Shown here piece after piece: positions 15,110 through 32,238 of a stretch of DNA of 64,000 bases. Every line of letters begins with the position of its first letter. Positions within the stretch are counted from its first letter, which is position 1. Below the pieces are notes generated by a model, which saw nothing but the letters and a program-made list of their open reading frames with translations, was not told the origin of the DNA and made no database searches. The stretch covers positions 1 to 64,000 of the forward strand of contig CANRAZ010000001.1 in assembly GCA_947628705.1 (NCBI GenBank), written 5' to 3'. A program made the position numbers and the translations under genes. The DNA is from an uncultured Lachnospiraceae bacterium (GTDB lineage: Bacteria; Bacillota; Clostridia; Lachnospirales; Lachnospiraceae).

Positions 15110-15162
15110 GTGTCTGTACGTTTCAACGGTTAAATGCCGGACGTACAAGCATTATTATACTT

Positions 15163-15243
15163 TTGCTAGGGGCGCTTATGCTGAGAAGTGTGTTCACTGA
15201 CCCTCATTACTTGATGCGGTTAATACCGACGTAAGGAAGCAGG
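15163..15243 (+). ncRNA. TPP riboswitch (THI element)
   Basis: Conserved core GGGGCGC...CTGAGA...ACCC...ACTTGATGCGGTTAATACCGACGTAAGGAAGCA; upstream of thiT. Confidence 0.95.
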
Positions 15244-15282
15244 TTTGCGGCGAGCCGCCGTAAAGGACTCTTTTTAAGTTCC

Positions 15283-15311
15283 CCTCCAAGCAATGCTAAG
15301 GAGGTTTTTTT
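15283..15311 (+). promoter_or_regulatory. Terminator-like hairpin overlapping the thiT Shine-Dalgarno
   Basis: CCTCC-A-AGC-AAT-GCT-AA-GGAGG followed by TTTTTTT and then ATG at 15312; 3' arm is the SD. Confidence 0.65.
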
Positions 15312-27503: not shown

Positions 27504-28352
27504 TCAAAGCCCCTGAAACATATCCAGCACAAGCATTAAAAGTATTCCGGACATTATTCCTACCGTACCCATGTGCCTTTTACTGTCTGTCTGGACGTCG
27601 GGGATAAGCTCTTCTATTGTCACATGAAGCATTGTTCCGGCTGCATATGCAAGCAGAAACGGCATCAGCGGTTCGATATAGGAAGAAAGATATACTGCCA
27701 ATACTCCAAACACAGGCTCTACTACGCCGCTTAAAACGCTAAAAACGAAAGCCTTCGCCTTGCTGTAGCCGTCGTCAATAAATGTTACTGCCAAGGCCGC
27801 TGTCTCCGGGAAATTTTGAATTCCTATTCCTATTGCAAGCACAACAGCCGCATACAAAAGCCCGCCCTGCTCAGGTTTAGCCGCACTGGCGGCGCAGGCA
27901 AGGCCGACGGTTATGCCCTCAGGTATGTTATGCAGAGTCATTGCAAGCATCAAAAGCCCTGCCGAGCTTTTCTTCCTGCTGCATTTCAGTCCGATAATTT
28001 CATCTGTGGCTATCAAAATCACACAGCCAAGAACAAAGCCAAGCGTAATTAAAGCAATTCCTTTCAGACCCTTTACGTCTTCCATCGCCGGAATCAAAAG
28101 TGCAAAAACAGAGGTTGAGAGCATTACTCCTGCCGAAAATCCCAAAATAAGCTTTGCAAGCTTTCCGGTATTAAGCGGCTTTATAAAAAATGCCATTGCC
28201 GCTCCCAAAACAGTCATCAGAAAAAGAAAGCCGGTTCCCAGCAAGACTTCTATTATAACGTTCACAAATATATCCCTTTGCGTTTTAATACTGCTAATGC
28301 CAATATATCCTTTTTTTCGCCTTGGGTTACTAAAAAGCACATTTTTTCCCAT
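27504..28352 (-). CDS. ZIP-family metal transporter
   Basis: MLAMTLHNIPEGITVGLACA, GIGIQNFPETAALAV; start may be internal (MNVIIEVLL-like region). Confidence 0.9.
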   Translation of the reverse strand: MGKNVLFSNPRRKKGYIGISSIKTQRDIFVNVIIEVLLGTGFLFLMTVLGAAMAFFIKPLNTGKLAKLILGFSAGVMLSTSVFALLIPAMEDVKGLKGIALITLGFVLGCVILIATDEIIGLKCSRKKSSAGLLMLAMTLHNIPEGITVGLACAASAAKPEQGGLLYAAVVLAIGIGIQNFPETAALAVTFIDDGYSKAKAFVFSVLSGVVEPVFGVLAVYLSSYIEPLMPFLLAYAAGTMLHVTIEELIPDVQTDSKRHMGTVGIMSGILLMLVLDMFQGL

Positions 28353-28523
28353 ATCCTGCCATGTTTTTATCTCTTCTGAATCAAATCCAAAAAACGGCTG
28401 TCCTGTAAGTCCGTCCCGTTCCGCAGAAAATAAGCCGTTATGAGAAGCTGCAAATCAGGAGCCCAGCCGACAGGCATATCACGACCCACGTAATAAATGA
28501 CGCACAATTAATAACAAAAGCTA

Positions 28524-28552
28524 TTGACTTTAAAGCCGTTTGTTCCTATAAT
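28524..28552 (+). promoter_or_regulatory. Sigma-A-type promoter for aconitase-icd operon
   Basis: TTGACT-17 nt-TATAAT. Confidence 0.75.
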
Positions 28553-28568
28553 TAGAGCAGTTGAAGGT

Positions 28569-28613
28569 GTTTGCAAGGTCGTAAGCAAAATTATGTCTTT
28601 GCAAACTTTTTTT
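28569..28613 (+). terminator. Terminator-like hairpin in acn leader (candidate attenuator)
   Basis: GTTTGCAAGG...CTTTGCAAAC (10 bp with one G-U) followed by TTTTTTT; no + strand gene upstream needs a terminator here. Confidence 0.65.
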
Positions 28614-28661
28614 CTTTAAAAGAAAAATACGGTAAAATAAAGTAATAAGGAGGTCAGCCTT

Positions 28662-30905
28662 ATGATTACATTACATAAAGGCGGCGTTTATCTGGTTGAC
28701 GGCGCTCCTGTGGAAAGCTGCGAGGTTTCTGCAGATGAGGCGCGCAGGCAGACAATTGCTTACTCGGTGCTTTCAGCGCATAACACGTCGGGAGACGATG
28801 CAAAGCTGAAAATCAAATTTGACGCTATGGTTTCTCACGACATTACCTATGTCGGCATTATTCAAACTGCCAGAGCAAGCGGATTAAAGGAATTTCCTCT
28901 CCCTTATGCGATGACCAACTGCCACAATTCCCTTTGTGCGGTCGGCGGAACGATCAATGAGGACGACCATGTTTTCGGACTGTCCGCCGCAAAAAAATTC
29001 GGAGGAATCTACGTTCCTGCAAATCAGAGCGTTATCCACTCCTATGCACGCGAAGCTCTTGTCAAATGCGGCGGCATGATACTCGGCTCTGACAGCCACA
29101 CCCGTTACGGAGCCCTCGGCACGATGGGAGTCGGAGAAGGCGGTCCTGAGCTTGTAAAGCAGCTTCTTAAAAACACATGGGACGTAAACCTTCCTGAGGT
29201 CGTGCTTGTCTACCTTACAGGCACTCCAAGACGCGGAATCGGACCGCATGACGTTGCAATTGCCCTTGTCGGCGCGACCTTTGCAAACGGCTTCGTAAAA
29301 AACAAGGTGCTTGAATTTGTCGGACCCGGAGTTAAAAATCTTCCTATTGATTTCAGAAACGGCATAGACGTTATGACAACGGAAACGACCTGCCTTTCTT
29401 CTATTTGGGAAACGGACGATATCGTTAGGGCGTCCTATGCCGCTCATGGCAGGGAGGAATTCTACAAAGAGCTTAAGCCCGGCAGAACCGCTTACTATGA
29501 CAGCATGATTACGATTGACCTTGACAAGATGGAATCAATGATCGCTCTTCCGTTCCACCCGTCAAATGCCTACACAATACATGAATTCAACCTTCATGCA
29601 AAGGAAATCCTCGCAGGCGTTGAGGAGGAGGCAAGGAAGAAATTTCCTAAAGCAGTATTTAATCTTCAGGATAAAGTCAAGGACGGTAAGGTATATGCAA
29701 GCCAGGGCGTAATCGCCGGGTGTTCGGGCGGTACCTTTGATAACATCAATGAGGCTGCTGCGATTCTTAAGGACGGAAGCACCGGCAACGATTACTTTTC
29801 TCTGTCGGTTTACCCTACAAGCGTGCCTGTAAGTCTTGAGCTTACGAAGACAGGCGCTACCGCTGAGCTCTTAAAGGCAGGCGCAATAATAAAGCCTTCC
29901 TTCTGCGGTCCTTGCTTCGGCGCAGGCGATGTTCCTGCAAACAACGGGCTTTCAATCAGACACACGACCAGAAACTTCCCTAACCGCGAAGGAAGCAAGC
30001 CGGGTGAAGGACAGATCGCAGGAGTTGCCCTCATGGATTCACGTTCTATTGCTGCCACCGCTCTTAACGGAGGCGTAATAACTGCCGCTACCGATATTGA
30101 CTATGAGGTTCCTGTACATGATTACAGCTTTGAAAGCACGGTATATGAACACAGGGTATATAACGGCTACGGGAACCCGAAGCCTGAAACCGAGCTTATT
30201 CTCGGCCCGAACATTACAGACTGGCCTGAAATGGACGCGCTGGCGGACAATCTTCTTGTTAAGCTTGCAGCAGTTATCCATGACCCTGTAACTACTACAG
30301 ACGAGCTTATTCCTTCGGGAGAAACCTCTTCCTACAGAAGCAATCCTTTAAGGCTTGCCGAATTTGCCCTTTCAAGACGTGTTCCGGATTATGTCGGAAA
30401 CAGCAAGGCAATTAATGAAACAGAAAACAAGAGAAGAAAGGGCGAAACCCCGGAGGAGCTTATAAACGTGCTCGGAAAACTTGGCGACGCTTCCGCGCTG
30501 CTTTCAAGGACACAGTTCGGTTCCTGCGTATTTGCAAACAAACCGGGCGACGGTTCCGCACGTGAGCAGGCAGCTTCCTGTCAAAAGGTTCTCGGCGGCT
30601 TTGCAAACATCTGTTACGAATTTGCTACCAAGCGCTACAGAAGCAACTGCATCAACTGGGGCATTCTTCCTTTCACAATTGCAGAGGGAACCGAATTTCC
30701 TTATGAAACGGGCGACTATGTGTTTGTCCCTGATATCCGGAAAAGGATCGAGGCAGGAATCGAAGAATTCCCTGCAAAGGTTGTTAAAGCCGACGGAAGC
30801 ATCGACGATATTACTCTGTATGTCAAGGGGCTTACCGCCGATGAAAAGGAAATAATCCTTGACGGCTGCCTGATTAACTATTACGCCGCGCAAATGGACA
30901 AATAG
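28662..30905 (+). CDS. acn: Aconitate hydratase (aconitase/hydratase family)
   Basis: 747 aa; DSHTRYGALGTMGVGEGG, GCSGGTFDNINEAA, FCGPCFGAGD, TATALNGG; adjacent to icd. Confidence 0.9.
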   Translation: MITLHKGGVYLVDGAPVESCEVSADEARRQTIAYSVLSAHNTSGDDAKLKIKFDAMVSHDITYVGIIQTARASGLKEFPLPYAMTNCHNSLCAVGGTINEDDHVFGLSAAKKFGGIYVPANQSVIHSYAREALVKCGGMILGSDSHTRYGALGTMGVGEGGPELVKQLLKNTWDVNLPEVVLVYLTGTPRRGIGPHDVAIALVGATFANGFVKNKVLEFVGPGVKNLPIDFRNGIDVMTTETTCLSSIWETDDIVRASYAAHGREEFYKELKPGRTAYYDSMITIDLDKMESMIALPFHPSNAYTIHEFNLHAKEILAGVEEEARKKFPKAVFNLQDKVKDGKVYASQGVIAGCSGGTFDNINEAAAILKDGSTGNDYFSLSVYPTSVPVSLELTKTGATAELLKAGAIIKPSFCGPCFGAGDVPANNGLSIRHTTRNFPNREGSKPGEGQIAGVALMDSRSIAATALNGGVITAATDIDYEVPVHDYSFESTVYEHRVYNGYGNPKPETELILGPNITDWPEMDALADNLLVKLAAVIHDPVTTTDELIPSGETSSYRSNPLRLAEFALSRRVPDYVGNSKAINETENKRRKGETPEELINVLGKLGDASALLSRTQFGSCVFANKPGDGSAREQAASCQKVLGGFANICYEFATKRYRSNCINWGILPFTIAEGTEFPYETGDYVFVPDIRKRIEAGIEEFPAKVVKADGSIDDITLYVKGLTADEKEIILDGCLINYYAAQMDK

Positions 30906-31023
30906 CATTGCGGCAGTTTCCAGCGAGCTTTAACGAGTTTTTATTCCAAAAAATGTTAAGGTGCAGGCATATGCGTCCGCACCGGCATATACAGGCAGGA
31001 TTTCTGCCGGAAAGAAGGTTAAT

Positions 31024-32238
31024 ATGGACAAAATCAAAATGACCACTCCCCTTGTAGAGATGGACGGCGACGAAATGACCAGAATTCTCTGGAAAATGAT
31101 TAAGGACGAGCTTCTGCTTCCTTTCGTTGAACTTAACACCGAATACTACGATTTAGGTCTTCCTGAAAGAGACAGAACTGCGGATCAGGTAACGATCGAT
31201 TCCGCCAACGCGACAAAGAAATACGGCGTTGCGGTTAAATGCGCTACCATTACTCCTAATGCTCAGCGTATGACTGAATACAATCTCCATGAAATGTGGA
31301 AATCTCCTAACGGAACAATACGTGCAATACTTGACGGAACGGTTTTCAGAGCGCCGATTATGATTGACTCCATCAAACCTGTAGTTAAAAACTGGGAAAA
31401 GCCGATCACAATCGCACGTCATGCCTATGGCGACGTATATAAAAACACCGAGTTCAGAATTCCGGGACCGGGCAAGGCGGAGCTTGTTTTCACAGGCGAG
31501 GACGGAAACGAAATGAAACAGACAATTTATGACTTTGAATGTCCGGGAGTACTCCAAGGGCAGTATAACAAGGATACCTCAATCCGTTCCTTTGCTCACT
31601 CCTGCTTCCAGTATGCGATAGGCACCAAACAGGATTTGTGGTTCGCCACCAAAGACACGATCAGCAAAAAATACGACCATACCTTCAAGGATATTTTCCA
31701 GGAAATTTACGATGCCGAATACAAGGAAAAATTTGAAGAACTCGGAATCGAGTATTTCTACACTCTTATTGACGACGCAGTTGCAAGAGTTATCCGCAGC
31801 AAGGGCGGTTATATTTGGGCATGCAAGAATTACGACGGCGACGTTATGAGCGATATGGTTTCAACGGCCTTCGGTTCCCTTGCCATGATGACCTCGGTAC
31901 TCGTAAGTCCTGAAGGAAATTATGAATATGAAGCCGCTCACGGAACCGTAACCCGTCACTACTACAAATACCTTAAGGGTGAAGAAACTTCAACAAATCC
32001 AATGGCAACCATTTTTGCATGGAGCGGCGCTCTTAAAAAGCGCGGTGAGCTTGACAGTCTTGATGAGCTTGTTGCCTTTGCAGAGAAGCTTGAAGAAGCC
32101 TGCATAGACACCCTGAATGACGGAATAATGACGAAAGACCTTGTCGGACTTGTGGAAAAGGGCTTTAACGCCACTGCCGTAAACAGCAGGGATTTCATAC
32201 TCGCAATCAGAGAAAGACTTGAAAAGAAACTGGCATAA
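31024..32238 (+). CDS. icd: NADP-dependent isocitrate dehydrogenase (eukaryotic-like type)
   Basis: [81 protein letters not shown]. Confidence 0.96.

Follow-up and report, generated by a model that had tools for sequence, protein, structure and literature searches.

The leader of the aconitase-isocitrate dehydrogenase (acn-icd) operon contains a consensus-like promoter, a stable hairpin a few nucleotides behind it and, directly after the hairpin, a tract of seven T residues. The hairpin occurs once in the genome and is absent from the acn leaders of the closest relatives. The element is probably a lineage-specific, partial, promoter-proximal intrinsic terminator. The initial annotation had gone further and proposed that the operon is controlled by premature termination through an attenuator-like switch. 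Of this proposal, the promoter-proximal terminator-like element stands; the antiterminator, the switch and their conservation found no support.

The locus and the promoter of acn

The features of the locus are collected in Table 1. As had been noted initially, no plus-strand gene lies upstream of acn; its neighbour is a divergent gene for a ZIP-family transporter, and hence there is no plus-strand gene on that side that would need a terminator. The leader of this divergent gene has a modest terminator-like hairpin of its own (AACGGCT...AGCCGTTTTTT, 28391-28440, minus strand), which scores under the cut-off used. The gene called acn here scores 1213 bits against NCBIfam NF008503 (cut-off 641) and, judged by these profile matches, belongs to the PRK11413 (YbhJ-like) branch of the aconitase family. 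As it is paired with a gene for an NADP-dependent isocitrate dehydrogenase (668.6 bits against NF006156, cut-off 335), it is reasonable to read it as an aconitase. The source assembly, a draft of 89 contigs, is 86% complete, and its two matches to citrate synthase are both on contigs other than that of acn.

Table 1. Features of the acn-icd locus. Positions are those of the window, i.e. the whole stretch of 64,000 nucleotides that was analysed.
Feature	Position	Strand	Basis and remarks
Intergenic region, 309 nt	between minus-strand ZIP-family gene (27504-28352) and acn start codon (28662)		
ZIP-family metal transporter gene, divergent from acn	27504-28352	-	Pfam Zip; list of open reading frames
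acn promoter TTGACT-17-TATAAT	28524-28552	+	11 of 12 consensus positions; predicted start site about 28559
Terminator-like hairpin	28569-28606	+	-17.8 kcal/mol, z = -7.0; single genome copy; d = 23.3
T7 tract	28607-28613	+	Sequence; U-tract of the predicted terminator, tail in the terminator score
Weak second hairpin UUUUUCUU/AAGAAAAA	28609-28627	+	Fold of 28559-28661 and nascent-chain folds
Ribosome binding site AAGGAGG	28647-28653	+	Perfect sequence; 8 nt 5' of the start codon; not enclosed by the terminator-like hairpin in the 28559-28661 fold
acn, aconitase-family hydratase gene (PRK11413/YbhJ-like, 747 aa, ATG at 28662)	28662-30905	+	Pfam Aconitase; NCBIfam
icd, NADP-dependent isocitrate dehydrogenase gene, partner 3' of acn	31018-32238	+	NCBIfam

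The promoter and the ribosome binding site are both present where the initial annotation had placed them. In a set of 108 acn leaders from related genomes (duplicates of one genome removed), a promoter of the TTGACN-17-TATAAT/TACAAT type was found upstream of acn in 54 relatives, at a distance of 30-147 nt (median 40). Because these 54 related genes carry a similar promoter, TTGACT-17-TATAAT is very probably the genuine promoter of acn, which would place the hairpin inside the acn transcript. The promoter-to-start-codon distance of 109 nt is the second longest among the 55 (the 54 relatives and the window), and the hairpin occupies the extra length.

The hairpin as a probable intrinsic terminator

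The hairpin turned out to be larger than the 10 bp initially described. Its outer stem, GTTTGCAAGG/CTTTGCAAAC (28569-28578/28597-28606), has 10 bp including one G-U and is stacked across one U-U mismatch on an inner stem of 5 bp that had been overlooked (CGUAA/UUAUG, 28580-28584/28591-28595), for a total of 15 pairs around a GCAAAA loop. The folding energy compares with a mean of -4.8 kcal/mol for shuffled sequences, and the GC content of the stem is only moderate for a terminator. The TTTTTTT tract follows the hairpin as claimed. The terminator score d was calculated with a formula of the d'Aubenton-Carafa type, which combines the hairpin energy per length with a weighted T-tail; when the 109 nt between the -10 element and the start codon were shuffled 5000 times with the dinucleotides preserved, one shuffle reached the value of the hairpin. 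The hairpin and the T7 tract are thus more than chance, and positions 28569-28613 have the composition of an intrinsic terminator, a stable hairpin directly before a U-tract. The reading as a minus-strand terminator was rejected, as that side of the hairpin has no T-run. A whole-genome search for further copies, as expected of a repeat element, found none in intergenic sequence. The weak second hairpin re-pairs the U-tract in the read-through RNA and, according to the folding model, forms too late to influence termination.

A sample of 464 kb of the same genome (the window together with 400 kb from elsewhere, both strands) contained 32 candidates with d of at least 20. Twenty of them were intergenic and directly 3' of a same-strand gene, which is the expected place for real terminators, and six were in coding sequence, so that a d of this size usually, if not always, marks a terminator. 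Leaders that face a divergent neighbouring gene rarely have such elements: the sample contained four with d of at least 0. One of these was discarded because it actually ends an 80-aa gene that was shorter than the gene-length filter, and another is the acn hairpin. The remaining two are attenuators of known types, namely the terminator behind a TPP riboswitch before a thiT-like gene and an element before a trpE-type gene, 3' of the T-box motif GGTGGCACCGCG. Since both are of this kind, the position of the acn hairpin, between its own promoter and the start codon and with no co-directional gene upstream, is attenuator-like; the sample, which is very small, supports such a placement.

Both of these leaders can be described in their own right. 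The TPP riboswitch with its terminator is an ordinary known element on the plus strand of the window (15158-15304), before a gene for a thiT-like thiamine transporter. The T-box-like leader with its terminator is located elsewhere in the genome (L128, 7103-7500, minus strand); its motif was read by eye, and Rfam at the gathering threshold did not report it.

According to the proposed mechanism, RNA polymerase would initiate near 28559, and the hairpin (+11 to +48) would fold as it emerges, followed by the U7 tract. A fraction of the transcripts would terminate at about +50 to +55, giving an RNA of about 50-55 nt, and the remaining ones would read through into acn-icd, where the ribosome binding site is left free. 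By default, acn-icd expression would be lowered to a fixed extent. The computation establishes the promoter, the hairpin, the U-tract, the single copy and the absence from relatives; the occurrence of termination, its partial nature and its effect on expression are what we infer.

Folding of the nascent leader and known regulator classes

The alternative helix TTTGC/GCAAA, which had been proposed as an antiterminator, exists as complementarity in the letters, but it is not a meaningful structure, with p of at most 0.01 in the nascent RNA. When nascent chains were folded from the predicted start site at 28559, the early RNA preferred a 7-bp register (28568-28574/28581-28587) of -6.0 kcal/mol. 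This competitor was lost once position 28602 was exposed, and the terminator fold then had a probability of 1.0 at every length tested. When the loop was shuffled and the 5' arm kept, 13% of the sequences were as stable as -6.0 kcal/mol and 44% had at least five arm-loop pairs. Hence, the alternative pairing is at chance level, and neither the nascent-chain folding nor the loop shuffles revealed a mutually exclusive antiterminator fold.

Furthermore, only about 10 nt separate the predicted start site from the hairpin, which is too little for an aptamer, a T-box or a leader peptide. The initial statement that the leader matches no riboswitch class is correct: no Rfam family was found in the leader at either gathering or permissive thresholds (best permissive match, E = 3.4). 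The T-box sequence GGTGGNACCGCG had no match on either strand of 28353-28661, and the start site (TAGAGCAGTTGAAGG) has no homopolymer run for slippage of the pyrG type. Reading of the leader for peptides gave only GTG- or TTG-initiated frames of 5-7 codons within 28561-28584; these have no room for a ribosome binding site past the start site and no codon run of the trp/his type. A short core pattern of the BglG/LicT-type RAT site had no match.

Comparison with related genomes

An acn leader exists in three congeners (G001, G003 and G004; acn 79-85% identical), and the genus set comprised no genome beyond those used. The promoter is present in all three, at 51, 32 and 45 nt, respectively, from the start codon chosen, and both hairpin and T-tract are missing from each leader. 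Conservation of both exclusive helices had been set beforehand as the test that could refute the switch, and neither helix was present in any of the three. A DNA search of the leader against 60 related genomes gave no convincing match; besides itself, it returned one 33-nt AT-rich match, which was taken as chance. The hairpin, known from one genome only, is therefore specific to the species or to a very narrow clade. As the same promoter is followed in the three congeners by leaders of 32-51 nt that have no hairpin, it is also dispensable for acn expression.

When the 110 nt preceding the start codon were scored, 4 of 108 acn leaders and 5 of 96 controls taken at the same loci had a terminator-like hairpin, i.e. 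terminators are no more frequent in acn leaders than in the controls. A recurrent hairpin shared by acn leaders was considered and rejected, as the few hairpins in other lineages differ in sequence and do not exceed the control rate. Conserved or covarying counterparts of the two helices were found neither in the three congeners nor in the 60 genomes. The two predictions that a switch makes for the sequence, an exclusive antiterminator and conservation, thus both failed, and an on/off switch in the acn leader is not supported.

Several relatives have other elements at this place. Five related genomes (L066, L075, L078, L080 and L083, at about 2910-2965) have a different leader hairpin, TGCCCGTAGT...ACTACGGGCA, followed in most of them by TTTTT and located between a ATCGTATACAAT element and the acn start codon; its DNA is strongly conserved, without compensatory changes and without an Rfam match. 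L063 and L081 have an unrelated hairpin, AGCTGTCGCA/TGCGGCAGCT, 56-30 nt before acn and directly behind a putative TATAGT -10 element, adjoining a TTGTATACAATC...GATTGTATGC repeat that resembles the operator of a regulator. In L032, L003, L114 (G001) and many other relatives, GTATG/GTATAC words, absent from the window, occur a few bases past the -10 element of acn; they are possibly the operator of a shared transcription factor. An operator common to the acn promoters of the relatives was rejected: there were only weak T-rich signals and these words, and none of them in the window.

Alternative explanations

Regulation of acn-icd at the hairpin is possible. A protein or another trans-acting factor at the hairpin or its loop could respond to a carbon, nitrogen or iron signal and set the balance between termination and read-through into acn-icd accordingly. 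The element is directly behind the promoter, the other confirmed divergent-leader terminators of the genome sample are attenuators, and such a use of 5' terminators is widespread (PMC2965389). However, the chance-level antiterminator, the lack of an aptamer, T-box, leader peptide or start-site slippage run, the absence of the hairpin from the congeners and the lack of terminator enrichment in acn leaders all speak against it, and we regard it as rather unlikely. Regulation would require a factor that has the hairpin, its loop or the polymerase as its target. The more specific version, a recently evolved, aptamer-less attenuator in which a candidate RNA-binding protein would gate acn-icd, and with it 2-oxoglutarate and glutamate, at a hairpin about 10 nt from the start site, is doubtful.

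The hairpin is also stable and no more than about 10 nt away from the predicted 5' end, as would suit a structure that shields the acn-icd mRNA from 5'-end-dependent decay, with little or no termination at the T-run. In B. subtilis, such 5'-proximal hairpins are known to stabilize long stretches of the mRNA downstream of them (PMC3997798). A stabilizer is plausible, and stabilization and termination can coexist; however, the T7 tract is not needed for a stabilizer, and the hairpin with T7 scores as a terminator, which makes stabilization an unlikely explanation in place of termination.

It is quite improbable that the element is a DNA operator, in which the TTTGCAA words at 28570-28576 and 28598-28604 bind a transcription factor just past the start site. 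The near-palindromic TTTGCAAR does occur twice in 36 bp, and the promoters of the relatives have a T-rich stretch and the recurrent GTATG/GTATAC words past the -10 element. However, those words are not found in the window, and an operator leaves both the inner stem and the T7 tract unexplained. A genome-wide search for TTTGCAA pairs, as members of a regulon, found nine others, all in open reading frames and none intergenic. By eye, the leader of a citrate synthase gene of this genome (L153) has no hairpin similar to that of acn.

Although the promoter and the terminator enclose about 50 nt and could yield an independent small RNA of 50-55 nt, with acn served by a promoter further downstream, a separate small RNA gene is very unlikely, given that the promoter is the one conserved for acn: in the 54 relatives it stands before acn with no terminator-like hairpin between, and no further promoter is among the matches listed within 28613-28662.

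Comparison with known systems

Promoter-proximal intrinsic termination, the reading that we prefer for the acn leader, has many parallels. Terminators in 5' leaders are common in bacteria, with 15,930 predicted candidates in 302 genomes (Naville and Gautheret 2010, PMC2965389). Like these, the acn element is Rho-independent, lies in a leader on the same strand as the downstream gene and close to it, and is far from the 3' end of any upstream gene; no sensor, alternative fold or conservation is visible for it. The text of the survey mentions neither aconitase nor isocitrate, and a literature search found no report of attenuation at an aconitase gene.

The B. subtilis pyrG attenuator, which PMC4448216 cites as an example of CTP-sensitive reiterative transcription, likewise lacks an aptamer and has a terminator that follows the start site almost at once. 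It depends, however, on G residues being added reiteratively at the start site, whereas the start region of acn, TAGAGCAGTTG, has no homopolymer run. The stabilizing hairpins of Bacillus mRNAs (PMC3997798) share with that of acn a stable fold at the 5' end, but T7 directly follows the latter, which is the signature of a terminator. In the ABC importer operons of cellulolytic Clostridia (PMC9045158), terminator efficiency sets the level of the downstream genes, as we propose for acn-icd; those terminators sit between the genes of an operon, whereas the acn element sits at the promoter.

The acn hairpin is thus an ordinary kind of element that is absent from the closest relatives. If termination is real, it would be another bare promoter-proximal terminator; of single-lineage origin and without a recognizable sensor, it would determine how strongly an operon of central metabolism is expressed. 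Were it regulated, the supply of glutamate precursor would be controlled at this point without a sensor. Set beside the known attenuators, the acn case mainly shows that a terminator and a short internal complementarity do not by themselves make a switch.
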